Source: Ferrovibrio sp. MS7
GTDB taxonomy: Bacteria; Pseudomonadota; Alphaproteobacteria; Ferrovibrionales; Ferrovibrionaceae
Direction of reading: 5' to 3'
DNA: 64,000 nt
NCBI RefSeq assembly: GCF_038404985.1
Contig: NZ_JBBKBA010000001.1
Span: forward strand, 1,640,001 to 1,704,000
Part shown: in pieces, positions 21,834 to 45,590 of the stretch
How positions within the stretch are numbered: position 1 is the first letter of the stretch
Layout of the letters: every line of letters begins with the position of its first letter
Translations under genes and position numbers: made by a program
Notes under the pieces: model-generated
Told to the model about the DNA's origin: nothing
Databases searched by the model: none
Seen by the model: only the letters and a program-made list of their open reading frames with translations

Positions 21834-21845
21834 GGAAGTAGAGCA

Positions 21846-27857: not shown

Positions 27858-28682
27858 TTAGCTGCCAACCTGCAGGGTCGCGGTCAGCCGCCGCAACGTA
27901 CTGACGATGGACATGGCCGTGATGCGGCTGGAACGTGGGTTATCGGCCATCGGCAGGTTCTCGATGGTGGCGGAGAGCAGCGCGCTATCAGAAGTAATCT
28001 CGATGGCGTGGGTGTTGCGTACCAGGCTGGGATCGGCCCAGACCTCGACCTGGGTGCGATCCGGGCCGATGCCGGCGAGGCTCAGCGTTGCCGCGACATT
28101 GACATTGGCCGGAAAAGCCTTTGCTGCGGCGCGGGCATTGCCGCTGAACACGCAGAGTGGCGCGGTCAGCGCCTCCAGGCTGATGCCCTGTTCGGCCAGA
28201 TAGGGGGCGCTGCGCAAGCCGTTTGGCGGCTTGCGTGAAATCAGCTTGGCGCTGGTGATCTCGCCTTCTGCCATCGCCGCCAGGGCATCCAGGGCCATCA
28301 TCGCACCAGACGGCACGATGATGCGGCCGCCATGCCGCCGGGCCAGTACTGGCAGGTCTTCGGCCTCAAGCAAGGCAGCCGAACTGATGGCAATCAGGAT
28401 TTTGCCGCGCATCAGCACCGGTACGGCAATGTCACGAAATGCCGCCGCCGGCAGGCTCTCCACCACGATATCGGCCTGCTCGGCAAGTGCGGTCAGACTA
28501 CACATTGCCGGGGGTTGCTTGAAGGAAGCCAGCTTGGCAACAGCCTTGGCCTCATCGCGGGCGGCAATTCCGGCGAGCATCAGGCCATCAATGCCAGTAT
28601 CCAGGCGTCGTGCCACATCAAGGCCAATGGCACCAAGTCCAGCGATGCCGACGCGGAGCGGAGGGGTGGTTGTGGTCATCAT
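27858..28682 (-). CDS. Aspartate-dehydrogenase-like oxidoreductase (NadX family), copy 2
   Basis: A 274-aa paralogue of the gene at 27026: Rossmann motif RVGIAGLGAIGLDVARRL, then IIVPSGAMMALDALAAMAEG and FPANVNVAATLSLAGIGPDRTQVEVWADP in the catalytic domain. The ATG at 28682 has AGGTGA 5 bases upstream; an in-frame start at 28727 would place the N-terminus inside an inverted repeat. It is tail-to-tail with copy 1, and head-to-head with the aldehyde dehydrogenase at 28869, itself a paralogue of the region-3 aldehyde dehydrogenase. Confidence 0.87.
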   Translation of the reverse strand: MMTTTTPPLRVGIAGLGAIGLDVARRLDTGIDGLMLAGIAARDEAKAVAKLASFKQPPAMCSLTALAEQADIVVESLPAAAFRDIAVPVLMRGKILIAISSAALLEAEDLPVLARRHGGRIIVPSGAMMALDALAAMAEGEITSAKLISRKPPNGLRSAPYLAEQGISLEALTAPLCVFSGNARAAAKAFPANVNVAATLSLAGIGPDRTQVEVWADPSLVRNTHAIEITSDSALLSATIENLPMADNPRSSRITAMSIVSTLRRLTATLQVGS

Positions 28683-28758: not shown

Positions 28759-28805
28759 TATTGGAGACGGCAACCCTACAGGGTCAATCCTTGTCTGCCA
28801 ATATT
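28757..28805. repeat. Second inverted repeat in the same divergent gap
   Basis: AATATTGGAGAC (28757-28768) pairs with GTCTGCCAATATT (28793-28805) apart from one bulged base, with a 24-base gap. It starts inside the right arm of the 16-bp repeat and ends on the -35 region of the candidate aldehyde-dehydrogenase promoter. The layout suggests looping or two operator half-sites. Confidence 0.55.
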
Positions 28806-28832
28806 GACTATCTGGTTAGTAATAAATATTCT
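28804..28832 (+). promoter_or_regulatory. Promoter with TetR-type palindrome, site A
   Basis: TTGACT (28804-28809), 17 bases, TATTCT (28827-28832) forms a good sigma-70 promoter for the aldehyde dehydrogenase start at 28869. Overlapping it, ACTATCTGGTTAGT (28807-28820) is an imperfect palindrome (ACTA-N6-TAGT). It differs by only two bases from each of the sites at 31259 and 36126 and by four from that at 43445. Blocking of the -35 box by a repressor is inferred. Confidence 0.6.
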
Positions 28833-28868
28833 GTATCGCATGGTGCAACCAGTCTGACGGGTGAGGTC

Positions 28869-30299
28869 ATGGCCAATATCATTCAGTCGTATTTCCCAGG
28901 CAGTGAAGCCCTGCCAACCGACACCCGTTTCAATCTGGTGCGTCCTAGTGACGGCGCCGTGATTGGCGAAATCGCCGAAGCCGGCGTGCCGGGCGTGGCG
29001 GCAGCGGTGGCGTCCTCGCTCGCGACTTTCCGGGCGCTGCGCAGGACGCCGCTGCATACGCGCATCCAGTGGCTGCGGCAAGCGGCAGCGGCACTGAAAG
29101 GCGAGGCCGAAGCACTGGCACAGCTCATCGCCGAGGATGTCGGCAAACCGATCCGGGCCTGCCGCTTCGAAGCCCAGCGCGGCGTGGAATTCATCGAGGC
29201 CTGTGCCGCTGCCATCGCGCAGATTGGCGGCGAGGTATTGCCGCTGGATGCCGCAGCCACTGGCACCGGTTTGATCGGCATGACCCGTCATTTGCCCTAT
29301 GGCGTGGTTGGTGCCATTACGCCGTTCAATGCGCCGATCAACCTGCTGGTGCAGAAGCTGGCGCCGGCTGTTGCCGCCGGCAACACCGTGGTGGTGAAGC
29401 CGGCTCCGGCCGGCACCCGTACCGCTTTGAAGCTGGCTGCCCTGTTCCGTGCGGCAGGATGGCCTGAGGGGTTGTTCAACGTGGTGACCGGAGACAAGGA
29501 GACGGCGCTTGCCCTGGCGGCGCATTCCGATGTGCGGGCGGTATCCTTCACCGGCGGCACGCAGGGTGGCGAAGCCCTGGCCCGCGCCGCTGGCGCCAAG
29601 AAATTTGTTGCTGAGCTGGGCTCGAATGCCGCAAATATCGTGTTGGCTGATGCCAATCTGGCCGTCGCTGCCAAGAAGATCGCCAGCGCCGCCTTCGAGG
29701 CCAGTGGCCAGCAATGCATTTCGGCCCAGCGTGTGCTGGTGCAGGAATCAGTGTTCGAGGCTTTCACCGCGCAGTTCGCCGCCGCTGCGGCCGCACTCAA
29801 GGTCGGCAAGCCCGAGGATCCCGCCACCGATGTTGCCGCCATGGTATCGAGCCAGGCCGCTGACCGGGTGATGGCAATGATCGCCGATGCCAAGCAGCAT
29901 GGTGCCGTTACCGTGCTGGAACCGAGCCGCGATGGCGCGACGATCTCGCCGGCCATCCTCAGCCTGGTGCCGAAAGCGGCGCGGCTGTGGCGCGAAGAAG
30001 TCTTCGGCCCAGTGGCGATCCTGGTGCCGTTCAAGACCGTGGAGGAGGCCATTGCGCTGGCGAATGATTCGCCCTTCGGTTTGCAGGGTGCGGTATTCAC
30101 CAGCAATCTTGCCACGGCGCTGCAATTCGCCGATGATTTCGATGTCGGCTCGCTCTGGATCAACGAGGCCAGCCGTTTCCGGCTCGACATGTATCCTTTC
30201 GGCGGTGTGAAGCAGAGCGGTGTTGGCCGCGAGGGTGTGCGCTATGCCATCGAGGAAATGTCGCAGATCAAGTTCATCGGCATCCGGCCGACGGCTTAA
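28869..30299 (+). CDS. Aldehyde dehydrogenase, paralogue of the 19046 gene
   Basis: A 476-aa ALDH with catalytic Cys283 (GQQCISA) and Glu249 (AELGSN), cofactor block FNAPINLLVQKLAPAVAAGNTVVVKPAPAGT, and a C-terminus almost identical to that of the ALDH at 19046. The ATG at 28869 follows GGGTGAGG; the frame is open upstream to 28713 across the promoter but without homology. It is monocistronic, ending 3 bases before the converging esterase gene. As a near copy of the region-3 enzyme it probably acts on a related semialdehyde, under a different regulator. Confidence 0.92.
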   Translation: MANIIQSYFPGSEALPTDTRFNLVRPSDGAVIGEIAEAGVPGVAAAVASSLATFRALRRTPLHTRIQWLRQAAAALKGEAEALAQLIAEDVGKPIRACRFEAQRGVEFIEACAAAIAQIGGEVLPLDAAATGTGLIGMTRHLPYGVVGAITPFNAPINLLVQKLAPAVAAGNTVVVKPAPAGTRTALKLAALFRAAGWPEGLFNVVTGDKETALALAAHSDVRAVSFTGGTQGGEALARAAGAKKFVAELGSNAANIVLADANLAVAAKKIASAAFEASGQQCISAQRVLVQESVFEAFTAQFAAAAAALKVGKPEDPATDVAAMVSSQAADRVMAMIADAKQHGAVTVLEPSRDGATISPAILSLVPKAARLWREEVFGPVAILVPFKTVEEAIALANDSPFGLQGAVFTSNLATALQFADDFDVGSLWINEASRFRLDMYPFGGVKQSGVGREGVRYAIEEMSQIKFIGIRPTA

Positions 30300-30302
30300 G
30301 GT

Positions 30303-31211
30303 TCAGCCTTCGGCGATAAATCCGAGGATCGCTTCGCCCAGTGCAGTTTCAGCGGTGTTGAAATGCGCGATGGATGAGGTGTGGTTGTGGCGTTTGAGCC
30401 AGTAGACCGGCGGCGCCCGACGTTTTGCCACGGCCAGCCGGTGCGCCAGTTCCAGGCAGTAGAGGTCGATCAGCGGATTCTCGAATTCCGCGAGCGCGAT
30501 GAAGGTGCGCACACTATTGGCATCGACATGCGAGACCGGTGAGTAATCGTCGAACTTGGTGGCATCTGGCCCGTAATAGGCCTCTACTTTTCGGGCATTG
30601 GGATTCTCGGCCAGATTGTCGGCCCGCACACGGCCGCTGACGATGATCAGGCCGGCTAGGCCATGGCCCTTGGCGCCATGCAGGCGCTGGTCATAGGCAT
30701 AGCTGGCGGTATGGGCGCCGCCGGCGGAATGGCCCATCAGGTAGATCCGTGCCGGATCAATCCGCCAGTCGGTGGCATGGCTTTTCACCCAGTCGACCAC
30801 ACTGGCGATATCCTGGCTGGCCCCGGGATAGGATGTGTCGTCAGCCAGGCGATAACCGATATTGATGCCGACAATCCCGTGCCGCGCGAAATAATAAAGC
30901 ACGTTCGCGTAAATCTCGTCGCTGCGGTTGCGATGCCCCTCGACGAAGGCACCGCCATGGACAAACAGCAGCACTGGCCGCGGTTTGTCGATTGAATCCT
31001 GCGGCGAGAAAATATCGAATTGCTGGCGTGGATGTGGGCCATAGGCAATATCGCTGGTCACCGATACGCCAGCCTTTGGCGCGTTTTTCAGCACCTTGCT
31101 GAAGGCTTCGATCATGCGCCGGACATTGCCGCCGGTATCGGAACCCCAGCGCGGCCCGATTTCGGCCATTTCGGCCCAGAGCTCGTCGGGAATCGGTGGC
31201 AAGCTGGTCAT
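30303..31211 (-). CDS. Alpha/beta hydrolase, carboxylesterase/HSL-like
   Basis: A 302-aa cytoplasmic serine hydrolase. The oxyanion motif VHGGAFVEGHRN (HGG type) and nucleophile elbow GHSAGG are clear; Asp and His (HNHTSSIAHF) follow in order. Family members include N-formylkynureninase-like and arylesterase-like enzymes, both plausible in ring catabolism. ATG 31211 is preferred to a TTG at 31274, which lies inside the site-B palindrome. It is divergent from the CoxG-AtzG-AtzE operon. Confidence 0.85.
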   Translation of the reverse strand: MTSLPPIPDELWAEMAEIGPRWGSDTGGNVRRMIEAFSKVLKNAPKAGVSVTSDIAYGPHPRQQFDIFSPQDSIDKPRPVLLFVHGGAFVEGHRNRSDEIYANVLYYFARHGIVGINIGYRLADDTSYPGASQDIASVVDWVKSHATDWRIDPARIYLMGHSAGGAHTASYAYDQRLHGAKGHGLAGLIIVSGRVRADNLAENPNARKVEAYYGPDATKFDDYSPVSHVDANSVRTFIALAEFENPLIDLYCLELAHRLAVAKRRAPPVYWLKRHNHTSSIAHFNTAETALGEAILGFIAEG

Positions 31212-31258
31212 TGCATGCGGTCCACTATTGAACGGATTGTGAGCAAGTAGGTCACCAA

Positions 31259-31274
31259 TTGACCAGATAGTCAA
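31259..31274. promoter_or_regulatory. TetR-type palindrome, site B
   Basis: TTGACCAGATAGTCAA has perfect five-base arms (TTGAC-N6-GTCAA). Read on the minus strand it is TTGACTATCTGGTCAA, matching site A at 14 of 16 positions. It sits in the divergent gap between the esterase (start 31211) and the CoxG-like gene (start 31350), so one bound regulator could control both directions. Confidence 0.6.
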
Positions 31275-31349
31275 TTATTGACGTATTGTCGGTGATCCGA
31301 TAGGTGTTGTTCATTCTGTTGTAAAACGTAGTCCAGGGGTGGCATTGCG

Positions 31350-31826
31350 ATGGCTATGAATATGAAGGGCGAGGTTTCCCTCCCGGCATCACGCAACACA
31401 GTATGGCAGAAGCTCAATGATCCGGAAGTACTGAAGCTCTGCATCCCGGGTTGTGAATCCCTGGAGCGCACCGAGGAAGGCGGCTTTGCCGCTGTTGCCA
31501 AGATGAAGATCGGGCCGGTTTCGGCCACGTTCCGCGGCAAGGTCGAACTGGCCGATCTCGATCCCCCGAATGGCTATCGCATTCTTGGTGCAGGTGATGG
31601 CGGCATTGCCGGGCATGCCAAGGGCGGAGCCAAGGTGGCGTTGACGGCGGAGGGCGAGGATCAGTGTCTGCTGAGCTATGAGGCGGAGGCCAATATCGGC
31701 GGCAAGATCGCTCAGCTCGGTGCCCGCATGATCGATTCCGTGGCCAAGAAGATGGCGGATCAGTTCTTCGAGAAATTCGCCGCCCAGGTTGGTGGAGAGA
31801 GTGGCGGCCAGGAGGCCCAGGCATGA
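31350..31826 (+). CDS. CoxG-like SRPBCC protein
   Basis: A 158-aa CoxG-family protein (MKGEVSLPASRNTVWQKLNDPEVLKLCIPGCESL; KMKIGPVSATFRGKVEL; C-terminal VAKKMADQFFEKFAAQV). It lacks the membrane tail of the paralogue at 21846. First of five coupled genes, it overlaps the AtzG-like gene by 4 bases. CoxG-like proteins assist maturation or membrane placement of molybdenum hydroxylases; an IorA/IorB-type enzyme lies at the end of this operon. ATGs at 31350, 31356 and 31362 are all in frame; the first is listed. Confidence 0.88.
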   Translation: MAMNMKGEVSLPASRNTVWQKLNDPEVLKLCIPGCESLERTEEGGFAAVAKMKIGPVSATFRGKVELADLDPPNGYRILGAGDGGIAGHAKGGAKVALTAEGEDQCLLSYEAEANIGGKIAQLGARMIDSVAKKMADQFFEKFAAQVGGESGGQEAQA

Positions 31827-32023
31827 GCAGCAGCATGAGCGGCGATGAATTCGATGCCGAAACTTTCGTGCGCCAGAGCGCGGCGCTGAGCGGCTTCACC
31901 ATCACGCCGGAGCAGCTGCCGGGCGTGGTGACGAATATCAAGCGGATCGTGCCGCTTGCCCGGCTCTATCTGGATTTTCCCCTGCCCGATGAGGTGGAGC
32001 TGGCATCGGTGTTCAAGCCATGA
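31823..32023 (+). CDS. AtzG-like small amidase partner (DUF4089, GatC-like)
   Basis: A 66-aa protein with two predicted helices (FVRQSAALSGFTITPEQLPGVVTNIKRIVPLARLYLDFPLP) and the terminal PLPDEVELASVFKP that resembles AtzG and the belt of GatC. AtzG is known to wrap and stabilise the amidase AtzE. Overlaps of 4 bases at both ends, with the AtzE-like amidase next, support a 1:1 complex. In-frame ATGs at 31823 and 31835 are both possible. Confidence 0.85.
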   Translation: MSSSMSGDEFDAETFVRQSAALSGFTITPEQLPGVVTNIKRIVPLARLYLDFPLPDEVELASVFKP

Positions 32024-33411
32024 TCGACCATACCAGCAACGCGGCGGAAATTGCAGCCGAGGTTCAGTCCGGTCGCCGGAGCGCGGCAGAGGCGGTGGAG
32101 ATTTCCCTGGGCCGCATCGCCGCCCTGGATTCGAAGCTGAACGGCTTCACCGATGTGATGGCGGATCGCGCCCGCGCCACGGCGTCGCGGCTGGATGCGG
32201 CGCGTGCCGCCGGAACGGTGCTGGGGCCGCTGGCCGGTGTGCCCTTCGCGGTGAAGAGTCTTTATGATGTTGCCGGACGTGTCACGGTGGCTGGTTCGGC
32301 AATCAATCGCGATCATGCCCCGCGCCAGGCCGATCAGCCGTTGATCCAACGCCTGGAAGCCGCCGGTGCCATTCTGATCGGCGCGCTGAACATGAGCGAG
32401 TATGCCTACGATTTCGTTGGCGAGAATGTGCATTACGGCCATGCCCGTAATCCGCATGATCCCTCGCGTGGCGCCGGTGGCTCATCCAGCGGCTCTGGTG
32501 TGGCGGTCGCCAGCGGCATGGTGCCTCTCAGCCTTGGCTCCGATACCAATGGTTCGATCCGTGTGCCGTCTTCTTTCTGCGGTCTGTTCGGCTTGAAGCC
32601 GACTTTTGGCCGCTTACCGCGTAATGGCAGCTTCCCCTTCGTGTCCAGCCTTGATCATCTTGGGCCGATTGCCCGCAGTACGCGGGATCTGGCCTTGGCC
32701 TACGATGCAATACAGGGGCCGGATGCCGCCGACCCGGTCTGCGCCCAGTGCGCGCCGGAGCCGGTCCTAGGTAGTCTGGAGCAAGGCATCGATGGTCTGC
32801 GTATCGCCGTTGCTGATGGCTACTTCGCCAAAGGCGGAGAACCGCTGGCGCATGAGGCAGTGGAGGCTTTCGCCAAGGCATTGGGTGCCGACCGGCGAGT
32901 GACGATCCCGGAAGCCCATCGTGCCCGTGCCGCTGCCTATGTTATGACGGCCATCGAAGGCGCCAATCTGCATCGTGAGCGGTTGAAGCAGCGCGCCGAT
33001 GATATCAACCCCGAGGCACGCGACCGTTTCCTGGCCGGCGCCCTGCTGCCGGGCGAATGGTATGCCCAGGCCAGCCGCTTCCGCCGCTGGTATCAATCCC
33101 GGGTGCAGGAAATCTTCCGCGATGTCGATATCATCCTGGCACCAGCCACTCCCTGTGTGGCACCGCAATTCGGCCAGGAGATCATTGTCATCGATGGTGT
33201 GGAATTGCCGGTGAAGTCCACCATCGGCATGTTCGTGCAGCCGATTTCCTTCCTCGGCCTGCCGGTGGTGGCGACGCCCTATGCCAAGGCAGCGCCAATG
33301 CCCATTGGTGTGCAGGTGATCGCTGCTCCATGGCGCGAGGATCTGGCCCTGCGCGTGGCGCATCATCTCGAGCGCCAGGGTGTCGCGGCCTCGCGGGTCG
33401 CTTTCTTGTGA
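32020..33411 (+). CDS. Amidase-signature hydrolase, AtzE-like
   Basis: A 463-aa amidase-signature enzyme with the Ser-cisSer-Lys triad: Lys79 (PFAVKSLYDV), the cis-Ser in GGSSSGSG (about 155-156) and nucleophile Ser179 (SDTNGSIRVPSS). Preceded by an AtzG-like partner, as for 1-carboxybiuret hydrolase AtzE, but no cyanuric-acid hydrolase (AtzD) or AtzF is near, so triazine breakdown is not indicated. It overlaps the next Fe-S subunit by 4 bases, so it is co-translated with a molybdenum hydroxylase. It probably removes an amide or ureido nitrogen from the hydroxylase product or substrate. Confidence 0.9.
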   Translation: MIDHTSNAAEIAAEVQSGRRSAAEAVEISLGRIAALDSKLNGFTDVMADRARATASRLDAARAAGTVLGPLAGVPFAVKSLYDVAGRVTVAGSAINRDHAPRQADQPLIQRLEAAGAILIGALNMSEYAYDFVGENVHYGHARNPHDPSRGAGGSSSGSGVAVASGMVPLSLGSDTNGSIRVPSSFCGLFGLKPTFGRLPRNGSFPFVSSLDHLGPIARSTRDLALAYDAIQGPDAADPVCAQCAPEPVLGSLEQGIDGLRIAVADGYFAKGGEPLAHEAVEAFAKALGADRRVTIPEAHRARAAAYVMTAIEGANLHRERLKQRADDINPEARDRFLAGALLPGEWYAQASRFRRWYQSRVQEIFRDVDIILAPATPCVAPQFGQEIIVIDGVELPVKSTIGMFVQPISFLGLPVVATPYAKAAPMPIGVQVIAAPWREDLALRVAHHLERQGVAASRVAFL

Positions 33412-33920
33412 GGTTGGAGCCTGTAGCCCCGCCAGTTGCCGCACCAGCGGAAACGGTGCGGCTATGCGTCAATGGTTGCGATAAAGCTGTCGCTGTTCCT
33501 GCTGGTGCGACTTTGCTGGAAGCCTTGCGGAATCAACTTGGCCTGACGGCAGCACGCTTCGGCTGTGGTCTGGAGCAATGCGGTGCCTGCATGGTGCTGG
33601 TTGATGATGTGCTGCGCCATGCTTGCCGGATTGAGGTGGCGGATATGGCCGGTCGAAATATCCGCACGCCAGAGGCCTTGCAGGATGATCCTCTCGGCAG
33701 GATGTTGATTGATGCCTTCGTGACCCATCAGGCAGCGCAATGCGGCTATTGTCTCAGCGGCATTCTGATCACGGCCTATGCTTGGCTGCGTGGCCTGGAT
33801 TATCTACCCGGCCGGACTGAGATTGCCGCCCAGCTCGACCACCATCTCTGCCGCTGTGGGGCACATCCACGCATCTTGGCGGCGATAGCGGCGGCGGCCA
33901 AAGCACGCGTTACCGCCTAG
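33408..33920 (+). CDS. Molybdenum hydroxylase [2Fe-2S] subunit, IorA/NicA type
   Basis: A 170-aa protein with both [2Fe-2S] sites: CGLEQCGAC and a later C (ACRI), then QCGYCLSG and CRCGAHPRI. The CG-x-EQCGAC and CRCG forms are those of isoquinoline 1-oxidoreductase IorA and nicotinate dehydrogenase NicA, not of CoxS. The frame opens far upstream inside the amidase gene; the GTG at 33408, overlapping its stop, gives the right N-terminus. It pairs with the large subunit that starts 3 bases after its stop. Confidence 0.9.
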   Translation: MRLEPVAPPVAAPAETVRLCVNGCDKAVAVPAGATLLEALRNQLGLTAARFGCGLEQCGACMVLVDDVLRHACRIEVADMAGRNIRTPEALQDDPLGRMLIDAFVTHQAAQCGYCLSGILITAYAWLRGLDYLPGRTEIAAQLDHHLCRCGAHPRILAAIAAAAKARVTA

Positions 33921-33922
33921 GC

Positions 33923-36022
33923 ATGAAACCGCCGCCGAAAAGCCTGCAGGACAATCCATGCCTCGGTGCCTGGCTGGCACTGGAACAGCCGGGCCGCGTC
34001 AGTCTGCGCAGCGGCAAGGTGGAGTTGGGGCAGGGTATTCATACTGCCCTGATCCAGATCGCTGCCGAAGAATTGAACCTGAAGCCTGAGTGCTTCGATC
34101 TGCAGCCATTGCTCACCAGCTCCGGCCCGGATGAATGGCTCACCGCCAGCAGCCAGTCGATTGAAAGCGGCGGTGCCGCCATACGCACAGCGGCCGCCTG
34201 CTTGCGCACATCCACTATTGCCATTGCCGCGTCGATGCTGAATGCCGATCCTGCCCAGTTGGATCTGGTCCAAGGCGAAGTGTGGCATGGCGATGTCGCC
34301 ACTGGCCATGATTTGTGGTCGCTGGCAGGCCGGATCGACTGGCAGCAGGACCTGCGTGACGGTTGGAGTGGTTGGCCTGCGACTATGCAGCGTTCGATCG
34401 GGCAGTCTCTGCCGCGCCGTGATCTGCCGCACATCATTGCCGGCGGTGGATTCCTGCAGGACCTGCAGCTACCGGGCATGTTGCATGGCCGCGTGCTGCA
34501 TCCACCCGCTCATGGCGCGGTGCTTGAGAATTTGCCGGAGATGGCTTTCAAGGCACGTTTTGCCGAGCAATGCCGGCTACTGCGGCGGCGTGATTTCCTT
34601 GCTGTTGTTGCCGATAGCGAAACCCTGGCTCGACAGGCGGCTGACTATCTCGGCCCACGGCTGCGCTGGCGGCAAGCCGAGATTGTCATACCGGAAGATA
34701 TTGCCCCATGGTTACAGGCGCAGCCTGCGCAAACGATGCGTGATGATCCGGTGTCAACCGGTCCGGGCATTGCTCCGCATGCAGCCACCTATTCGCGCAG
34801 CTTCCTGTTGCATGGTTCTATTGCGCCTAGCTGTGCTGTGGCTATGCGCGGTGGCGGCGGACTGCATATCTGGACACACAGCCAAGGGGTTTTCCCGCTG
34901 CGCAGCCAGCTTGTCCGCGTCCTGGGCTTGCCGGCAGAGGAGATCGTGCTGGAGCATCGCCCAAGCGCGGGCTGTTATGGCCATAATGGTGCCGATGATG
35001 TGGCGCTGGAGGCTGCCCTTCTGGCGGAAGCATTCCCTGGCCGGCCGGTCCGCGTGTTGTGGAGCCGGGCGGATGAAATGGCCGCCACCTGCGGCTCGGC
35101 GATGGCGATCAGCCTGCAGGCGGGCATGGATGCCTCGGGCCGGATCGGACCATGGCGGGCCGAGGTCTGGAGTGGCACTCATTCCAGCCGGCCGGGCGCC
35201 GGCGGTGACGTCAATCTCAGCGCCGCCGCTGCGTGCGATGCGGCTTTTGTACCGAAGGCAATCAGCGATGTCGCCGATGCGGTGGGCGGCGGTGCCATGC
35301 GCAATATTGCGCCCCTTTATGATCTGCCATCGATCAGCGTGCGGCACCACCTTCTGCCGCAATTACCGCTGCGCACGTCATCGCTGCGGGCGCTTGGCGC
35401 ACAGCCGAATGTATTCGCCATCGAAGGTTTCATGGATGAACTAGCGGAACGGGCTGGTTGCGATCCATTGCATTTCCGCAAGCAGCATCTGAAGGATCCA
35501 CGCGCTCTCGCCGTGCTGGAGGGGGTGGCCGCCATGGCGGGATGGGAAGCCGATGCCAAAACTGGTATGGGCCGCGCGAAAGGCATCGGCTTCGCGCGTT
35601 ACAAGAACAAATCGGCTTATTGTGCCGTGGTGGTGGAGGTTGAGGTTGAAGAAATTGTGCAGGTGACGCGCGTGTGGTGCGTCGTCGATGCCGGACTTGT
35701 GATCAATCCCGATGGCGCAAGAAACCAGGTCGAAGGTGGTATCGTGCAATCGCTGAGCTGGTGCCTGAAGGAAACGGTGCGCAGCGATGGCGGTATGATC
35801 AGCAGTCGTGACTGGGACAGCTATCCGATTCTGCGTTTTTCAGAAGTGCCTGAAATCGAAACACGTTTTATCATAGACTGGGAGACGGAACCCCTGGGCG
35901 TCGGCGAGACATCACAGGGCCCAACAGCGGCAGCACTCGGCAATGCGGTCAGCCGTGCGCTGGGTACCCGGTTGCGTGCCCTGCCGTTCACGCGCGACCG
36001 GCTGCTGGCCGCCTTAGCCTGA
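33923..36022 (+). CDS. Molybdenum hydroxylase large subunit, IorB type
   Basis: A 699-aa molybdopterin-binding subunit of the two-subunit IorAB class (no FAD subunit), which oxidises N-heteroaromatics such as isoquinoline or nicotinate and passes electrons to a cytochrome or other carrier. The N-terminus reaches straight to the WLALEQPGRVSLRSGKVELGQGIHTALIQIAAEEL block, so the Tat leader of many IorB proteins is missing. Catalytic Glu662 lies in GVGETSQGP. No cytochrome domain is present, unlike NicB. It ends the five-gene operon. Confidence 0.88.
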   Translation: MKPPPKSLQDNPCLGAWLALEQPGRVSLRSGKVELGQGIHTALIQIAAEELNLKPECFDLQPLLTSSGPDEWLTASSQSIESGGAAIRTAAACLRTSTIAIAASMLNADPAQLDLVQGEVWHGDVATGHDLWSLAGRIDWQQDLRDGWSGWPATMQRSIGQSLPRRDLPHIIAGGGFLQDLQLPGMLHGRVLHPPAHGAVLENLPEMAFKARFAEQCRLLRRRDFLAVVADSETLARQAADYLGPRLRWRQAEIVIPEDIAPWLQAQPAQTMRDDPVSTGPGIAPHAATYSRSFLLHGSIAPSCAVAMRGGGGLHIWTHSQGVFPLRSQLVRVLGLPAEEIVLEHRPSAGCYGHNGADDVALEAALLAEAFPGRPVRVLWSRADEMAATCGSAMAISLQAGMDASGRIGPWRAEVWSGTHSSRPGAGGDVNLSAAAACDAAFVPKAISDVADAVGGGAMRNIAPLYDLPSISVRHHLLPQLPLRTSSLRALGAQPNVFAIEGFMDELAERAGCDPLHFRKQHLKDPRALAVLEGVAAMAGWEADAKTGMGRAKGIGFARYKNKSAYCAVVVEVEVEEIVQVTRVWCVVDAGLVINPDGARNQVEGGIVQSLSWCLKETVRSDGGMISSRDWDSYPILRFSEVPEIETRFIIDWETEPLGVGETSQGPTAAALGNAVSRALGTRLRALPFTRDRLLAALA

Positions 36023-36099
36023 CGGCGTGACCGGCAGCTTGCCGCAATTTCACGCAGCAACTGCCTGATTGCTGGGCTGCCGCAGAATGCGACATTTGC

Positions 36100-36142
36100 T
36101 TGACCATGCTGTGCTTGCAAACTAAACTAACCGGACAGTCAA
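36100..36142 (+). promoter_or_regulatory. Promoter with TetR-type palindrome, site C
   Basis: TTGACC (36100-36105), 17 bases, TAAACT (36123-36128) is a candidate promoter. ACTAACCGGACAGT (36126-36139) overlaps the -10 end; on the minus strand it reads ACTGTCCGGTTAGT, 12 of 14 identical to site A, including the adjacent TTG. The transcript would carry a leader of about 170 bases before the hydrolase start at 36314. Confidence 0.6.
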
Positions 36143-36313
36143 TTAAGTATGCAGTGGTGGTGCGGCCCTATCGCAGCTTGGAGACGGCTGCGGTGTTTGG
36201 TGAAGACGGCTGACACCAGGAAATTGCCATGTTGTGAATTGCGGCTTGGGTGTCGGGTTGTTGAGTATCGTGCTGCGGCTTCCTGGCTGCAGCCCGTTTC
36301 GGGGGTGAGGCAG

Positions 36314-38026
36314 ATGGGTGGCGTGAAAGGTGGCGCGAAGCCGGGTGCTGGCGTCGCGGACATGGTTTTTGAAAAAGACGTGCCGATCCAGGTCGGCGAT
36401 GGCACCGTGCTGCGTGCCAATGTCTACCGCCCGGCGCAGCCCGGGCGCTATCCCGTGGTGATGGCCATGGGCATCTACGGCAAGGACATCCACTTTGCCG
36501 ATGGTTATAAGCTGCAATGGGATGTGCTGAAGCGCATCTATCCGGGCGTGGATTCGGAAGGTACTTCCGGCGAACATCTGCGCTGGGAACTGGTGGATCC
36601 GGAGCGCTGGGTGCCAGCGGGTTATGTGGTGGTTGCCGTTGATTCGCGCGGCAGCGGCAAATCGCCGGGCTATCTCGATCCCTTCTCGCCGCGCGAAACA
36701 CAGGATTATTACGATGCCATCGAATGGGCCGGCGTGCAGCCCTGGTCGAATGGCAAGGTCGGTACCATCGGCATTTCCTATTACGGCATCAAGCAGTGGC
36801 AGGTGGCGTCGCTGCGACCGCCGCATCTGGCGGCAATCTGTGTCTGGGAAGGTGGCTCAGATCTTTATCGCGACTGGAGCCATCACGGCGGCATTTTCAG
36901 TCATCTCTTCCCTACCGCCTGGTATCCGCGCCAGGTGCTGCCAAATCAGCATGGCAACGCTGCCACGCATTACCGCGAGCGCGATACCGGCCAGCCGAAT
37001 ACCGGCGCGCCACTGAGTCCGGCAATGCTTGCCGGCAACCGCGCCGATCATCCGCGTGATCTGCTGGAGCATCCCCTGGATGATGCCTGGTACAGGGCGC
37101 GTTCGCCAAACCTGCCGCGCATCGATGTGCCGCTGCTCTCGGCGGGCAATTGGGGCGGTTCCGGCCTGCATCTGCGCGGCAATATCGAAGGTTTTCTGCG
37201 TGCCGGTTCGCAGCAGAAATGGCTGCAGCTTCATATTGGCACGCATTTCGAGAGTTTTTATCTGCCGGAATTCATCCAGCGCCAGCAGCGTTTCTTCGAT
37301 CACTTCCTGAAAGGTGAGGAAAACGGCTGGGACGATGAGGCTAGAATACGGCTGTTCATCCGCCGGCCCGATGGCGGCGCCTTCCGCACCGAAACGGAAT
37401 GGCCCTTGGCCCGCACGGCATGGACCCGCCTGCATCTCGATGCTGCCGGCAAAGCGCTAAAGGCTTCTCCGCCGCAGGTGGAAGCCAAGCTGAGCTATCG
37501 GTCGCTGGGCGAAGGCATCAGCTTCAGCACCGAGCCTTTCGTGCAGGAAACCGAATTCACCGGCCCGCTCAAGGCGCATCTCTGGGTCAGTTCCAGCACA
37601 ACGGATATGGACTTGTTCGTCACCCTGCGGCTATTCGATCCGGCCGGTGAGGAAGTGGTATTCACTGGCGCCAGCGATCTCACGCCGGTGGCGCGTGGCT
37701 GGCTACGAGCCTCGCATCGCAAGCAGGATGCGGCGATGACGCAGCCCTACCGGCCCTATCACAGCCACGACGAAATCCAGAAACTGACGCCTGGCGAAGC
37801 CTATGAACTGGACGTCGAAATCTGGCCGACCAGCATTGTCTGCCCGCCGGGCCATCGTCTGGTGCTGACGATTCAGGGCCGCGATTTCGAGGCTTGGGAT
37901 ATTCCCGGGCGCATCCTGCATAACAGTGAAGCGGATCGCCCACGCGCCGAGTTCGATGGCCTTTGCACCATCCTCACCGGCCCGGAACACGATTCCTACC
38001 TGCTGCTACCGAAGATCCCTGCCTGA
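36314..38026 (+). CDS. CocE/NonD-family serine hydrolase (X-Pro dipeptidyl-peptidase type)
   Basis: A 570-aa hydrolase. An N-terminal alpha/beta domain carries Ser155 in GISYYG, DSRGSGKSPG and the oxyanion region; a C-terminal jelly-roll domain (about 350-565) has the family TEFTGPLKAHLWVSSSTTDMDLFVTL stretch. Relatives hydrolyse cocaine-type esters, glutaryl amides and X-Pro amides. The start is uncertain: the frame opens at 36149, but GGTGAGG directly before the ATG at 36314 and the loss of family resemblance upstream favour 36314. First gene of a coupled operon with a third molybdenum hydroxylase. Confidence 0.84.
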   Translation: MGGVKGGAKPGAGVADMVFEKDVPIQVGDGTVLRANVYRPAQPGRYPVVMAMGIYGKDIHFADGYKLQWDVLKRIYPGVDSEGTSGEHLRWELVDPERWVPAGYVVVAVDSRGSGKSPGYLDPFSPRETQDYYDAIEWAGVQPWSNGKVGTIGISYYGIKQWQVASLRPPHLAAICVWEGGSDLYRDWSHHGGIFSHLFPTAWYPRQVLPNQHGNAATHYRERDTGQPNTGAPLSPAMLAGNRADHPRDLLEHPLDDAWYRARSPNLPRIDVPLLSAGNWGGSGLHLRGNIEGFLRAGSQQKWLQLHIGTHFESFYLPEFIQRQQRFFDHFLKGEENGWDDEARIRLFIRRPDGGAFRTETEWPLARTAWTRLHLDAAGKALKASPPQVEAKLSYRSLGEGISFSTEPFVQETEFTGPLKAHLWVSSSTTDMDLFVTLRLFDPAGEEVVFTGASDLTPVARGWLRASHRKQDAAMTQPYRPYHSHDEIQKLTPGEAYELDVEIWPTSIVCPPGHRLVLTIQGRDFEAWDIPGRILHNSEADRPRAEFDGLCTILTGPEHDSYLLLPKIPA

Positions 38027-38053
38027 TGCGCCCCTCATCCGCATGGTCCTGAC

Positions 38054-38914
38054 ATGAAGTTGTCTCGTCTCGAATACGCGCGCCCCGCCAGTGTGGCCGA
38101 AGCCATTGCCCTGCTGCAGGCCAATGAAGGTGCCAAGATCATTTCTGGCGGCCAGAGCCTGATGCCGGTGCTGGCTTTCCGCCTGGCGGCGCCGCCGCTG
38201 CTGGTGGATATCGGCGCCATTGAAGCGTTGCGTGGCATAGAGATCGCGGCGGCCGGTACCCGCCTTGGGGCACGGGTCCGCTGGTGCGAAATTGAGCGCG
38301 ATGTTGCTTTGCGCCAGGCGCAGCCATTACTGGTGGCGATGATTGATCAGGTGGCGCATTACCAGATTCGCAACCGGGGCACGGTTGGCGGCAGCTTGGC
38401 CCACGCCGATCCGGCGGCGGAAATGCCGGGCGTATCGGTGGTATGCGATGCTGTGTTGCATATCGTCGGGTCTGGCGGCAGCCGTGCCGTGCCGGCGGCG
38501 GATTTCTTCACCGGCCCGCTGCAGACCGTGCTGGCGGAAGATGAGGTGTTGGTGGCGGTCGACCTGCCGGCCTGGCCGGCAGCACGGCGCTGGGGCTTCG
38601 AGGAATTCGCGCTGCGTCGGGGTGATTTTGCCTTGGCCGGCGTTGCCGTGCATTACGATCGTGATGCGGCTGGTCAGGCGCGCCACGTCCATGTCGGCGT
38701 TATCGGTGCCGACGAAATGCCGCGTCGCCTGCATGATGTCGAGCAGGCGATGGAGGGCCAGAAGATCGATGCAGCATTGATTGCCTCGTCAGCGGCGCTT
38801 GCCGCCGCCAGCGTCAATCCGATGAGCGATCTGCATGCCGATGCGGAATACCGCCGGGCATTGGTGGCAACCCTCTTCGAGCGCGTGGTCCGCCGCGCCG
38901 AACAGTTGCAGTAA
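38054..38914 (+). CDS. Molybdenum hydroxylase, FAD-binding medium subunit (CoxM-like), copy 2
   Basis: A 286-aa FAD subunit. AGGQSL-type motif (ISGGQSLMPVLAFRLA, about residue 32), RNRGTVGGSLAHADPAAEMP (about residue 109) and the CO_deh_flav_C domain are all present. Gene order here is M-S-L, unlike the L-M-S order at 14241, so the two loci are not a simple recent duplication. Confidence 0.93.
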   Translation: MKLSRLEYARPASVAEAIALLQANEGAKIISGGQSLMPVLAFRLAAPPLLVDIGAIEALRGIEIAAAGTRLGARVRWCEIERDVALRQAQPLLVAMIDQVAHYQIRNRGTVGGSLAHADPAAEMPGVSVVCDAVLHIVGSGGSRAVPAADFFTGPLQTVLAEDEVLVAVDLPAWPAARRWGFEEFALRRGDFALAGVAVHYDRDAAGQARHVHVGVIGADEMPRRLHDVEQAMEGQKIDAALIASSAALAAASVNPMSDLHADAEYRRALVATLFERVVRRAEQLQ

Positions 38915-38924
38915 GGAACAAGCG

Positions 38925-39428
38925 ATGTCCGTGCAATTCACTTTGAATGGCAAGGCGGTGGAGTTCACCGGTGAAGCCCGCACCACTCTGTCTGATTGCG
39001 TGCGCCATCATTTCGGCAAGACCGGCACGCATGTCGGTTGCGAGCATGGTGTCTGCGGTGCCTGCACCGTGCTGGTGGATGGCGAGGCAGTGCGATCCTG
39101 CCTGATGCTGGCGGCGCAGGCCGGTGGTCACGAGGTGGTGACGGTGGAGGGGCTGTCGAATGACGACGAACTGTCGCCATTGCAGGCCGCCTTCCGCAAG
39201 CATCATGCATTGCAATGCGGGTTCTGCACGCCGGGCATCCTGACGACCGCACATGCCCTGCTGACCCATGAGCCGGATGCCGACGCAGAACGGATTCGCC
39301 ATGTTCTCTCTGGCAATATCTGCCGCTGCACCGGCTATCTGCCGATCATTGACGCAATCCTGGAGGCAAGGGCCGCCTATGCCAAGCCGGGCATTCAGGT
39401 GAAGTCCGACCAAGGAGAGCCGAAATGA
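38925..39428 (+). CDS. Molybdenum hydroxylase, [2Fe-2S] small subunit (CoxS-like), copy 2
   Basis: A 167-aa two-cluster ferredoxin-like subunit: CEHGVCGAC plus SC, CGFCTPGI and CRCTGY. The ATG at 38925 has AAGGA seven bases upstream; the frame opens at 38835 inside the FAD gene but the extension is not conserved. It overlaps the large-subunit gene by 4 bases. Confidence 0.94.
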   Translation: MSVQFTLNGKAVEFTGEARTTLSDCVRHHFGKTGTHVGCEHGVCGACTVLVDGEAVRSCLMLAAQAGGHEVVTVEGLSNDDELSPLQAAFRKHHALQCGFCTPGILTTAHALLTHEPDADAERIRHVLSGNICRCTGYLPIIDAILEARAAYAKPGIQVKSDQGEPK

Positions 39429-41752
39429 CGGTGCATGGCAGGGAATTCTCTGCGGCGGCGCCCGCCATCGGCCAGCCCATCAGCCGCGTCGAGGATCTGC
39501 GGCTGCTGCGTGGCAAGGGCCGCTATATCGACGATCTGTCGCTGCCCAATCAGGTTTTCGCCGTCATGCTGCGCAGCAGCGTGCCGCATGGTCGCATCAT
39601 TTCTATAGATGTGTCGGCAGCCCGGCGCATGCCTGGCGTGCATGCAGTGCTCACCGCAGCCGATATCGGGCTGCCGGTACCAAGCATTCCGGTGCGCTTG
39701 TTCCCGATACCTGAATATCTGCCGTTCCAGCAGCCGGTGATCGCCCAGGACAAGGTGCGTTACGTCGGTGAGCCCATCGCCATGGTGATCGCCGATAGCC
39801 CAGCCATCGGCGAGGACGCGTTGGAATTGATCGAAGTGGATATCGAGATGCTGCCCCCTGTGGCCGATCTCGAAGCCTCGCGCCGTGATCAAGCCCTGCT
39901 GGTCGAAGCCACCGGCTCGAACAAGTCGCATTTTTTCGAGGTCAGGAAAGGTGATGCCGAGGCGGCTTTCGCTGGCGCCGAATATACCAGGCGTGAGCGG
40001 CTCTATGTGCATCGCCATACCGGTGTCACCATGGAATTGCGTGGTTCGCTGGCACAGTGGGATGTCGAGCGCGGCCATATGACCGTATGGGGTGCCTCCA
40101 AGGTGCCGTTCGCCAATCGCCGTATTCTGGCCGCCACGATGGGCCTGCCGGAAGAAGCCGTCGATATGATCGAGGGTGACTCGGGCGGCAGCTATGGCGT
40201 GAAGGGCGAGTTCTTCCCTGAGGATTTCCTGGTTCCCTATGCGGCCAAATTGCTGGGCCGGCCAGTTAAATGGACCGAGGACCGCCGCGAACATCTGCTG
40301 GCTATCAGCCATGCCCGCGATATCGAGGCAGAGCTGGAGATTGCCTGCACCCGTGAAGGCCGTGTGCTCGCCATTCGTGGCGAAGTCTGGGCCAATATCG
40401 GCGCTTATATGCGCACGGCTGCGGTGATCACGCCGCGCAATGCCGGGCAGTTCATCTCCGGCCCTTATCAGGTCGAGCATGTGCATATAGACGTGGCGAT
40501 GCAGGTGTCGAACAAGTCGCCGTCCGGTACATACCGTGGCCCGGGCCGCTTTGAGGCGGATTTCTTCCGTGAGCGCCTGTTTGATCTTGTCGCCAAGGAT
40601 CTCGGCATCGATCCGGTGGAGTTCCGCCGTCGCAATCTGGTGCCCGAATCGGCGATGCCTTATCCGCTGCCGCAAACCGCGCCGGTGAACAATCCCACCG
40701 CGCTGGATAGTGGCGCCTATGAATTGCTGTTGGACCGCTGTCTCGCCGATGCCGGCTGGGCCGAGAAGCAGCATCTGCAGGGCAAGCTGGTTGATGGCCT
40801 GTATCATGGCCTGGCGGTGGCCTGTTTCATCGAAGGCGGCGCCGCTGGTCCGCGCGAATCCTCACGCATCGTGATCGAGGCCGATGGCATGGCGTCGGTT
40901 TATGTGGGTTCCTCCGGCGTCGGTCAGGGGGCGGAGACCATTCTGGCCCAGATCGCGGCCGATGCCCTTGATGTGCCTTATGACCGGGTGCGGATGTTCC
41001 TTGGCTCGACCACTTATGTGAAGGAGGGCTGGGGTTCCTACCATTCGCGCTCCACCGTGATGGGCGGTTCGGCGATCCTGCTGGCTGCGGAAGAGATCAA
41101 GCAGAAGCTGCGTGAGGCAGCGGCGATGCGGTTCAACTGTGCGCCTGATGAAGTGGACGTTACGCGTGGCGAGGTGCTGGCGCGCGATGGTCGGCGCTTG
41201 AGCTTTGCTGATCTGTCCTGTCAGGATATCAGCACAGAGGCGACCTTCCACAATCATCGCCATACCTATGCCTATGGCAGCCATGTGGCGCATGTGACAG
41301 TCGATCCCGGCACCGGACAGGTGACGGTGGTGGATTATGTCACCGTGGAAGATGCTGGCCGCGTCATCAATCCGCTGACCCTGCATGGCCAATCGATTGG
41401 CTCCATCGTGCAGGGCCTGGGCGGCACGCTGCTCGAGAATCTGGTCTACGATGAGAATGGCCAGATGCTGAGCGCGTCTTTCGCCGATTACCTGATGCCG
41501 CTGGCGACCGACTTTCCCAATATCCGTTCCACGGCCATCGGACTGCGGCCATCGCCATTCAATCCGCTGGGCGCCAAGGGCGCGGGCGAAGGCGGCACCA
41601 TTCCGGTTGGCGGCATCATTGCCAATGCGGTAGCCAATGCGCTTTCCAGTTTCGGCGTCGAGCCGATGGAACTACCGCTGACCCCGCCGCGCGTGTGGCG
41701 CATGATTCAAGCCGCCAGGCGCAAGCAACAGTCGATGGGAAGGACGGCGTGA
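39425..41752 (+). CDS. Molybdenum hydroxylase, molybdopterin-binding large subunit (CoxL-like), copy 2
   Basis: A 775-aa large subunit with Ald_Xan_dh_C domain (GKGRYIDDLSLPNQVFAVMLRSS), substrate-loop TYRGPGRFEADF in place of the CO dehydrogenase cysteine loop, and catalytic Glu722 in GAGEGG. It differs substantially from the subunit at 14241, so another substrate is likely. It overlaps its neighbours at both ends (ATGA), placing the following NMT1-type protein in the same transcript. Confidence 0.93.
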   Translation: MTVHGREFSAAAPAIGQPISRVEDLRLLRGKGRYIDDLSLPNQVFAVMLRSSVPHGRIISIDVSAARRMPGVHAVLTAADIGLPVPSIPVRLFPIPEYLPFQQPVIAQDKVRYVGEPIAMVIADSPAIGEDALELIEVDIEMLPPVADLEASRRDQALLVEATGSNKSHFFEVRKGDAEAAFAGAEYTRRERLYVHRHTGVTMELRGSLAQWDVERGHMTVWGASKVPFANRRILAATMGLPEEAVDMIEGDSGGSYGVKGEFFPEDFLVPYAAKLLGRPVKWTEDRREHLLAISHARDIEAELEIACTREGRVLAIRGEVWANIGAYMRTAAVITPRNAGQFISGPYQVEHVHIDVAMQVSNKSPSGTYRGPGRFEADFFRERLFDLVAKDLGIDPVEFRRRNLVPESAMPYPLPQTAPVNNPTALDSGAYELLLDRCLADAGWAEKQHLQGKLVDGLYHGLAVACFIEGGAAGPRESSRIVIEADGMASVYVGSSGVGQGAETILAQIAADALDVPYDRVRMFLGSTTYVKEGWGSYHSRSTVMGGSAILLAAEEIKQKLREAAAMRFNCAPDEVDVTRGEVLARDGRRLSFADLSCQDISTEATFHNHRHTYAYGSHVAHVTVDPGTGQVTVVDYVTVEDAGRVINPLTLHGQSIGSIVQGLGGTLLENLVYDENGQMLSASFADYLMPLATDFPNIRSTAIGLRPSPFNPLGAKGAGEGGTIPVGGIIANAVANALSSFGVEPMELPLTPPRVWRMIQAARRKQQSMGRTA

Positions 41753-42660
41753 TGCAGAAGCTGAAAGTCATCGTTTTCGAAGGTATGCAGAACCTGGCGA
41801 TCTTTGCGGCGCAAGCGCAAGGATATTTTGCGGCCGAGGGACTGGATATCGATCTCACTTTCACACCGGATTCCGGTGTGTTGCGCAATGGCCTGGCCGC
41901 CGGGGATTACGATATCGCGCATACGGCCGTGGACAATGCCATCGCCATGGTCGAGCTGGCCAAGGCAGATGTTGCCGTTGTGCTGGGCGGCGACAGTGGC
42001 TTCAACGCGCTGATGTTCCAGCCGGATGTCGGCTCGTTCGAGGATCTGCGTGGTCAGACCGTGCTGGTCGATGCACCTAACACCGCCTTCGCCCTGGTGC
42101 TGTATCGCATCATGGAACTGCATGGCCTTAAGCGCGGCGATTATGTGGCGCAGCCGGTGGGCGCCACGCCATTCCGCTTCAAGCGTATGCAGGAAGACCC
42201 TGCGGCACGGGCCTCGATCATGAACCTGCCATTCCGGATCCAGGCGCAGCGCGCCGGCCTGAAGCTGATCTGTGAAGCCATTGATGAAATCGGCCCGTAT
42301 CTGTCCACGGCTGGTTTTGTCATGCGGCCCTGGGCAGCGCGACATGAAGCAGCGCTTACAGCCTATTGCCGTGCCTATATCCGGGGCCTGCGCTGGGCGC
42401 TGGCGGCGGAGAATCAGGCGGCGGCCGTGGCATTGTTGGCCGAACGGCTGCGGCTTCCGGCCGATGTTGCCGCCGAAGGCTTTGCCATCGCCACAGCACC
42501 CGGCGGCATCGCTGTGGACGCAGAGATCGACATGGTCGGGCTTGGCAATGTGCTGCGGCTGCGCGCCGTGGTGGAAGGGCAGTGGGGCGGCGTGGCGCCG
42601 CCACCGGAGAATTATGTCGACCGGCATTTTCACGCGGCGGCACTGGCATCCTTGGGGTGA
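41752..42660 (+). CDS. NMT1/THI5-like ligand-binding protein without signal peptide
   Basis: A 302-aa protein with the NMT1/SsuA-type two-lobe fold: KVIVFEGMQNLAIFAAQAQGYFAAEGLDIDLTFTPDSGVLRNGLAAGDYDIAHTAVDNAI. Such proteins are normally exported importers' binding subunits, but here the fold starts at residue 3 with no signal peptide. The ATG overlaps the hydroxylase stop, and the upstream frame adds no leader. It may be a cytoplasmic sensor, a chaperone-like ligand carrier, or an enzyme of the THI5 type; alternatively, the export signal has been lost. No ABC genes adjoin it directly, although an NMT1-type importer starts at 43607. Confidence 0.8.
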   Translation: MQKLKVIVFEGMQNLAIFAAQAQGYFAAEGLDIDLTFTPDSGVLRNGLAAGDYDIAHTAVDNAIAMVELAKADVAVVLGGDSGFNALMFQPDVGSFEDLRGQTVLVDAPNTAFALVLYRIMELHGLKRGDYVAQPVGATPFRFKRMQEDPAARASIMNLPFRIQAQRAGLKLICEAIDEIGPYLSTAGFVMRPWAARHEAALTAYCRAYIRGLRWALAAENQAAAVALLAERLRLPADVAAEGFAIATAPGGIAVDAEIDMVGLGNVLRLRAVVEGQWGGVAPPPENYVDRHFHAAALASLG

Positions 42661-42735
42661 AGGGAATGGGAAGGTGCCGCCAGACATGCGGCGGCAACTG
42701 GCCTCGATATTAACGTGAGTGAGAAGGAGACTGTC

Positions 42736-43269
42736 ATGAGTGTCGCGCGTCATAAGCGCCCCCCTGAACTGGAGGGCATGTCGCTGGAGCAGATCATTGC
42801 CACCCATGTTGGCGAGTTCCGTAACAAGCGTGCCGATTGGGCCGCTTTCGAGGATGCCAAGATCGAGGGCTTCAAGCGGGCACAGCATCGCTTCATTGGT
42901 GCCGGCGGCTCTGGCAAGCATAACGATCCTACCGTTATTCCGGCGCGCAACATGACCCTGTCGATCATGTATGTCGAACCGGGCCAGGGTAATGCCGCGC
43001 ATACCCATGAGGTGGAAGAAGTGTTCTTCGTGCTCGATGGGCATCTCGATGTCTTCGTCGAGGATGAAGAAGGCAACCGCATTACCAAGCGTCTCGGTAA
43101 GTGGGATTGCATTTCCTGCCCGCCTGGCGTGATCCATGGGTATGAAAACAACAGCCTTGAGCGCGTCTACTTCCAGGTCATGCTGGGCCGTGCCAAGCCT
43201 GAGACCATGGGTTATGCGGATGACAGGCTGTTTCAGCGCCGCTCCGCGCACTTGTCTGAAACTGACTAA
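42736..43269 (+). CDS. Cupin-domain protein
   Basis: A 177-aa single-domain cupin. Motif 1 reads HTHEVEEVFFVLDGHLDVFVEDEEG (about residues 94-118) and motif 2 PPGVIHGYENN, with His/His/Glu/His metal ligands in place. The start at 42736 is fixed by AAGGAG six bases upstream; the in-frame GTG at 42715 precedes that site. Cupins in such operons can be ring-cleavage dioxygenases or isomerases, but this one is too general to assign. It is the last gene before a fresh promoter at 43415. Confidence 0.85.
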   Translation: MSVARHKRPPELEGMSLEQIIATHVGEFRNKRADWAAFEDAKIEGFKRAQHRFIGAGGSGKHNDPTVIPARNMTLSIMYVEPGQGNAAHTHEVEEVFFVLDGHLDVFVEDEEGNRITKRLGKWDCISCPPGVIHGYENNSLERVYFQVMLGRAKPETMGYADDRLFQRRSAHLSETD

Positions 43270-43606
43270 GCGGCAGTGCTTGATGAGAATGGCGATGCAA
43301 GCGGCTAAATTTCGTGCGTATGCCCCTTTATCGACCGTGCACCTGCTGAAAAAGCAGAGACGCGGCGATGCGCACAATGCCGTTCGAACACGAATGGACG
43401 GCGTGGGAATCCGCTTTGCATCTGCTTTTTTTGTGCCTATAAAAACTGACGAGTTAGTAAAGTAAGGAAAATCGGTGCTGCAGGCGATGCGTGATCGCAA
43501 GCGGATTCCGTTAGGGGTGGCAAAGCGTTCAAGCGGTGGAGCAAGCGGCGGAATGGTCTGCAATTTGCAAAGCCTGGCGCAGTTTAAACGGAAGGAAATC
43601 GCGAAA
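43270..43606 (+). other. 337-base intergenic region before the second ABC operon
   Basis: No convincing gene is seen. The first part holds no clear terminator. The second half has the promoter and palindrome at 43415-43458, followed by a leader of roughly 150 bases. An open frame from 43475 continues into the binding-protein gene, but its translation (MLQAMRDRKRIPLGVAKRSS) is not a plausible signal peptide. Confidence 0.6.
43415..43458 (+). promoter_or_regulatory. Promoter with TetR-type palindrome, site D
   Basis: TTTGCA (43415-43420), 17 bases, TATAAA (43438-43443) is a strong sigma-70 candidate. ACTGACGAGTTAGT (43445-43458) begins 2 bases after the -10, over the expected transcription start, a classic repressor position. 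It matches site C (minus strand) at 11 of 14 positions and keeps the ACT...AGT arms. Confidence 0.6.
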
Positions 43607-45545: not shown

Positions 45546-45590
45546 TGCCGGCTGCCTGTCTGCCGGCCTGTCGATTTATGAGGGGGTGCC

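Follow-up and report, generated by a model that had tools for sequence, protein, structure and literature searches.

Four copies of a palindrome and a TetR-family gene in a catabolic cluster of Ferrovibrio sp. MS7

Genes and palindromes of the cluster

We analysed a 64,000-nucleotide stretch of the Ferrovibrio sp. MS7 genome (contig NZ_JBBKBA010000001.1, positions 1,640,001 to 1,704,000 of the forward strand; hereafter the window, to which coordinates refer unless another source is named), in which a cluster of catabolic and transport genes carries four copies of one palindrome, A to D, and a gene for a TetR-family repressor. An earlier note on this DNA had described the four copies as a 14-position palindrome lying in promoter gaps before catabolic or transport units and had proposed that they form a local regulon read by the TetR. 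The observation of a four-site local regulon is confirmed here, and the TetR encoded at 47572 is, on sequence comparison, a well-supported candidate for the protein that binds the sites.

Operator A (28804..28819, plus strand; TTGACTATCTGGTTAG) lies between divergent genes for an aspartate-dehydrogenase-like protein, AspDH2 (27858..28682, minus strand; start approximate), and an aldehyde dehydrogenase, ALDH (28869..30299, plus). Operator B (31259..31274, minus; TTGACTATCTGGTCAA, the best palindrome) likewise stands in a divergent gap, between an alpha/beta hydrolase (esterase; 30303..31211, minus) and a CoxG-like protein (31350..31826, plus), the latter followed on the plus strand by an AtzG-like small subunit (31823..32023; PF13318), an AtzE-family amidohydrolase (32020..33411; above the TIGR02715 cut-off), an IorA-like [2Fe-2S] subunit (33432..33920; its start is the one used when searching the relatives, and its domains were found in a longer frame, 33057-33920) and an IorB-like molybdopterin subunit (33923..36022). 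The placement of sites in promoter gaps is corrected in that A and B each sit between two divergent units. Operator C (36127..36142, minus) lies upstream of plus-strand genes for a CocE/NonD-family hydrolase (36356..38026; above the TIGR00976 cut-off, start backed by homologs), a three-subunit molybdenum hydroxylase (CoxM, CoxS and CoxL-like; 38054..41752; CoxM and CoxS named from their translations, with synteny), an NMT1/THI5-like protein (41752..42660) and a cupin-domain protein (42739..43269). Operator D (43446..43461, minus) is weak and precedes an ABC importer, consisting of an NMT1-type solute-binding protein (43607..44653, plus; start near 43607 by alignment, not at 43475) and an ATPase and permease (44742..46421, plus; named from their translations, with synteny), together with a dihydroorotate-dehydrogenase-like (DHODH-like) gene (46424..47431, plus) whose product does not reach the curated cut-off of any listed DHODH model. 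The four operators would serve 18 genes in all, and tetR (47572..48303, plus) is the nineteenth. Its product carries TetR_N (PF00440, 54.3 bits) and TetR_C_29 (PF17938, 113.5 bits), both above cut-off, which places it in the TetR_C_29 subfamily, and has the recognition helix LSKNMLYHY.

Exact matches to TTGACTRTCYGGTYAR number three in the whole genome (4,576,383 bases in five contigs), namely A, B and C, so that the genome scan called for in the earlier note gave no sign of wide chance occurrence of the exact consensus; the reversed pattern, used as a control, had no exact match genome-wide. Allowing up to three mismatches gave 11 matches in the window, against a mean of 1.69 and a largest count of 4 in 100 shuffles, while up to two mismatches in the whole genome gave 14 matches against 15 for the reversed control. 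Specificity is thus confined to nearly complete forms of the motif, and beyond A to C its genome-wide matches are background. The four copies lie where the earlier note had placed them, but the palindrome spans 16 bp, approximately YTRACYRNNYRGTYAR, rather than 14. Scanning the genome with YTRACYRNNYRGTYAR returned A, B and C alone, and three places for its reversed control, and so added no wider regulon; TTGACYRNNYRGTCAA with one mismatch occurred at nine places, against 21 for its control, with B as the sole exact match.

Site D is the least secure of the four copies, having three mismatches to TTGACTRTCYGGTYAR, and is marginal taken alone. It scores 10.8 under a model built from A to C, a value that was attained in 3 of 1000 gaps simulated with matching composition. 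We accepted it because it is conserved in the same gap of three relatives described below, being identical in one (G006) and similar in the others (G015 and G016), and it stands out in the four-way alignment.

Several other features were observed around these sites. A perfect 16-bp inverted repeat (TTTCGCCACCATCTGC and GCAGATGGTGGCGAAA, with an 11-base loop; 28716-28758) lies in the interval from the AspDH2 start to A, 45 bp away from the latter, and its arm-end pattern was found only once in the genome. Two aspartate-dehydrogenase-like paralogs adjoin at 27029-28682, the first named from its translation and the second alone divergent from ALDH across A. A second catabolic block (14241-22472), with genes for a three-subunit molybdenum hydroxylase, a LigAB-type dioxygenase, an ALDH, a gamma-glutamyltranspeptidase-like protein and CoxG, precedes a branched-chain-type importer; no site of the strength of A to D was found in this block (best score 10.2, at 16765).

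Conservation in related genomes

Orthologs of the TetR, at 72-85% identity, occur in G006 and G008, of the same genus, and in G015 and G016, of another genus. The G008 contig (14,640 bases) ends at tetR, without the cluster, and the cluster was compared in G006, G015 and G016, with synteny assessed by tblastn and only matches of at least 45% identity listed. The cluster is syntenic in all three, and in all three the TetR (71-82% identical by tblastn) stands beside it. At this threshold the CoxG-like protein had no match in the three genomes, and the window's TRAP-type genes and its IclR-like gene (52352-53194, named from its translation) had none beside the cluster. The presence of the IclR-like gene means that the TetR is not strictly, as had been claimed, the sole nearby candidate regulator.

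Two models were used to score sites. The model built from A to C alone is an independent test of the relatives; a 12-site model joins the window's four sites to eight sites from relatives that were found with the three-site model, and because it includes these, only the scan with the A-to-C model tests the relatives independently. Under the latter, the C, A and B gaps hold ranks 1, 2 and 3 of all positions in both G015 (45,049 bases) and G016 (30,865 bases); in G006 (contig bases 8000-67522), C and A rank 1 and 2, and ranks 3-5 fall outside the cluster. The top three scores in G015 are 18.8, 15.1 and 14.8, and in 60 simulated 20-kb sequences of its dinucleotide make-up the top score had a mean of 10.1 and a largest value of 15.6, with the fourth never above 9.1. 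The fourth and fifth scores in G015 (11.9 and 11.4) fall inside genes, which places the background of real DNA somewhat above that of the simulation.

C is found at the same place in all three relatives, and the esterase/CoxG gap of G015 and G016 holds TTGACCAATTAGTCAA. Orthologs of A occur in all three, and in G006, where ALDH has been relocated between CoxL and NMT1, the site has moved with it: TTGACTGAACAGTTAG lies immediately upstream of the relocated ALDH. CocE relatives elsewhere (52-53% identity) showed no notable site in the 7 of 15 non-self CocE loci scanned, with 1.5-kb flanks (best score 9.3).

G006 also holds a palindrome-like site between AtzE and IorA that serves as the loop of a hairpin whose arms are GTGGCGGCAATAT and ATATTGCCGCCAC (L056 6192-6233; G006:C142 34191-34232).

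Recognition helices and operator arms

Relatives of the TetR in Alphaproteobacteria, at about 33-48% identity and many of them of the same TetR_C_29 subfamily, lie by NMT1-type ABC importers and hydantoinases, and so resemble the window in TetR, palindrome core and gene company; they differ in their outer arms, which vary by helix class. At 34 loci of TetR relatives, some of them near duplicates, palindromes with a RACYRNNYRGTY core (at least six of seven symmetric pairs) numbered 22 within 300 bp of the matched gene and 2 elsewhere, whereas four altered cores gave none near and 0-1 elsewhere. We then assembled a set of 54 distinct TetRs from protein searches, three plasmid records and a PF17938 search, thinned of proteins more than 90% alike. 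A RACYRNNYRGTY-core palindrome (at least five of seven pairs) lay within 500 bp of 33 of the 54, and swapping the core AC for each of the 15 other dinucleotides yielded palindromes beside only 0-8 of them.

The outer arm of the palindrome, counted from the first-listed site of each TetR, follows the residues that begin the recognition helix. TetRs whose helix starts NKR have GTA (17) or ATA (1), those with NKQ have TCA (8) or CCA (1), and those with SKR have TGA (3); NKN is found with ATA (1) and CTA (1), and SKN with ATA (1). This last SKN TetR has an overlapping second palindrome, CTAACTAGTTAGTCAA, that fits the window type better. The agreement between helix and arm was reached by none of 20,000 label shuffles, a test that ignores kinship among the TetRs.

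The helix of the window TetR itself starts SKN, and the set contains five SKN or SKG TetRs outside the ortholog group, four of which have a clear window-like site under the 12-site model. In G014, CTAACTAGTTAGTCAA (19.6) lies between tetR and an NMT1-type binding protein; in G077, CAGACCAATCAGTCAA (16.1) lies just past tetR, before genes for an SDR-like protein (named by eye), CocE (66%) and CoxL (67%); and in G360, TTGACTAAATGGTTAG (17.9) precedes two hydantoinase-like genes (named by eye), tetR and an ABC importer. Sinorhizobium sp. RAC02, whose TetR is of the SKG type, has two such sites, both in divergent gaps: CTGACTAGTCAGTCAA (20.9), between an amidohydrolase and an SBP_bac_1-type importer, and CTGACTGGTCAGTCAA (20.0). 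It is about as likely as not that, in TetR_C_29 regulators, the helix-start triplet (NKR, NKQ, SKR or SKN) sets the outer arm (GTA, TCA, TGA or YTR) of a shared RACYRNNYRGTY palindrome and that paralogs within one genome are kept apart in this way.

A separate arrangement was seen in Chelatococcus sp. CO-6 (L077 15836-15870), where overlapping GGTCAG/CTGACC-like repeats lie upstream of a ureidoglycolate lyase gene, beside a gene for an FCD-domain regulator.

Regulation, alternatives and substrate

The conserved gaps, the site that moved with ALDH, the TetR kept beside the cluster and the helix-linked palindromes beside its relatives all point to the local regulon that the earlier note had proposed. 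We consider it very likely that the TetR encoded at 47572-48303 is a local repressor that acts through the four promoter-region palindromes and is released by a ligand. A number of observations weigh against this interpretation. Since G015 and G016 nearly duplicate each other, the comparison covers two lineages rather than three; D is placed only sixth by score in every relative, behind some matches outside the gaps; and no clear B site was found in G006, whose esterase has been relocated beside tetR. Among the 54 TetR relatives, 21 have no RACYRNNYRGTY-core palindrome within 500 bp, 12 of them in the SKR class (15 members). The palindromes of the other 33 are mostly downstream of tetR (24 only downstream, 7 only upstream and 2 both), which differs from the window, where operators lie over four promoter regions upstream of tetR. 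Even in the SKN/SKG group, the site in Paracoccus ferrooxidans (CTAACCAACTAGTACA, 10.9), though in the right gap, between an ABC importer and hydantoinase genes, scores at background level for stretches of its length (9.9 in L077 and 12.9 in L128). The shuffles of helix and arm disregard kinship, as said above, and the promoter-like hexamers considered below were chosen by best match, without a null. Finally, the best score under the A-to-C model in the promoter gap of tetR was reached by 154 of 1000 simulated gaps and is not significant; this gap does hold a possible degenerate operator, CAGCCCAGTCAGTCTA (47469..47484, plus), in a stretch kept in G006 and G008, through which tetR might, tentatively, regulate itself.

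The lack of a significant site at the tetR promoter would also fit a different arrangement, in which the palindromes are real operators of a regulator encoded elsewhere, be it another TetR or the IclR-like protein, and the local TetR controls some other target. TetR genes are numerous in the genome (the RutR model matches 30 times at E <= 0.001), and the IclR-like gene lies in the window itself. However, the latter was rejected as the regulator because, in contrast to the TetR, it has no match of at least 45% identity beside the cluster in the relatives. There are four other PF17938 TetRs in the genome, of which three were covered: two have palindromes with different arms (TCAAC at L043 and GTAAC at L049), and no palindrome was found at the third (L083). 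As TetRs with a window-like helix have window-like palindromes nearby in other genomes, we regard a regulator encoded elsewhere as unlikely.

Whether the TetR would repress or activate can be judged from the position of the sites relative to promoter-like hexamers. Operator A overlaps TTGACT-N17-TATTCT, whose -35 (TTGACT) forms the left arm of the operator; by best match, the A operators of G006 and G015 lie between -35 and -10. C comes after TTGACC-N17-TAAACT, the final two bases of which overlap the operator, and overlap with the -10 is also seen in G006 (N18, TAGACT), G015 and G016. D lies two bases downstream of TTTGCA-N17-TATAAA, and similarly in G006, while its promoter is unclear in G015 and G016. 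Around B there are only weak hexamer matches. By sequence, the palindromic operator overlaps its target promoters, with B unclear. As A, C and D lie on or just after sigma-70-like hexamers, they are placed as repressor operators would be, and the predicted positions of C and D are those of a repressor. An activator or dual regulator could also use the geometries of A, with its left arm as -35, and of B, between divergent genes with weak hexamers. However, both in the window and in three relatives C falls on the -10, and in the window and G006 D lies just past it, positions that would block polymerase. TetR proteins are mostly repressors, and we think it quite unlikely that this one acts otherwise. 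That the palindrome is fortuitous, a chance or common promoter sequence whose TTGAC resembles a sigma-70 -35, is very improbable: the TTGACT of A can act as a -35 and the two-mismatch genome count equals that of the control, but both C and D come after their -35 elements, conservation in the orthologous gaps of another genus extends to the second arm, and the ALDH site moved along with its gene.

The scheme that we infer for the local TetR, from dimer and binding through repression to inducer, substrate and single pathway, would run as follows. A TetR dimer would bind the 16-bp palindrome at promoter regions A to D, with A controlling AspDH2 and ALDH, B the esterase and CoxG-AtzGE-IorAB, C CocE-CoxMSL-NMT1-cupin and D the ABC importer and DHODH-like gene, and perhaps bind weakly at its own promoter. 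Bound on or just past the sigma-70 elements, it would block polymerase until released by a small-molecule inducer, which is probably either the imported N-heterocycle serving as substrate or one of its metabolites; uptake and breakdown would then be induced together. That all units belong to one pathway is plausible from their predicted co-regulation and synteny.

The closest known system that the sites resemble is that of Escherichia coli RutR, the uracil-responsive TetR repressor of the rut operon. RutR is reported to repress rut, to act also at carAB and to bind a palindrome of approximately 16 bp (PMC10891134); taxon-specific substitutions in RutR motifs are described in a comparative study (PMC5343134). 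None of the texts searched spelled out the RutR consensus, and the likeness was tested on E. coli DNA. When the 12-site model was run over 10,001 bases around rut, TGGACTAAACGGTCAA, which lies in the rutA-rutR gap, scored highest at 14.0, with 8.1 for the runner-up; over 2,001 bases before and in carA, the highest score was 13.8, for TTGACCATTTGGTCCA before carA, and the next was 3.9. The rut and car promoters thus carry a 16-bp palindrome of the same layout, and the recognition helix starts SK in both RutR and the window TetR. The two proteins are only 25% identical, however, and the window TetR was rejected as a RutR: it scores 56.1 bits against TIGR03613, for which the cut-off is 368, and has PF17938 in place of the RutR ligand domain PF08362 (TetR_C_3). 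No rut genes were seen in the cluster.

The gene content suggests that an N-heterocycle is taken up and is oxidized and hydrolysed in steps, given the two molybdenum hydroxylases, the AtzGE amidase, the CocE and esterase hydrolases, the cupin and ALDH, and also the AspDH-like gene, the DHODH-like gene and the NMT1-type importer. The substrate is probably an N-heterocycle. The best solved relative of the CoxL-like subunit is 6-hydroxypseudooxynicotine dehydrogenase (7dqx), a CoxL-type N-heterocycle hydroxylase; for the solute-binding protein, 4nmy is the best solved relative and 3ix1 the next, the latter binding a thiamine-derived pyrimidine. A related set of genes surrounds the TetR of G121 (cupin 75%, CoxS 61%, ALDH 49%, AspDH 45% and CoxM/CoxL 36-37% identical), which supports including the AspDH genes in the regulon.

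By giving some 18 previously unassigned catabolic and transport genes a putative operator and regulator, these data would allow substrate and inducer to be sought together. They also tie recognition helix to operator, in a testable way, for a large and little-described group of TetR proteins. If such a helix code is true, the protein alone could suffice to predict operators and regulons for many catabolic clusters that are still uncharacterised.

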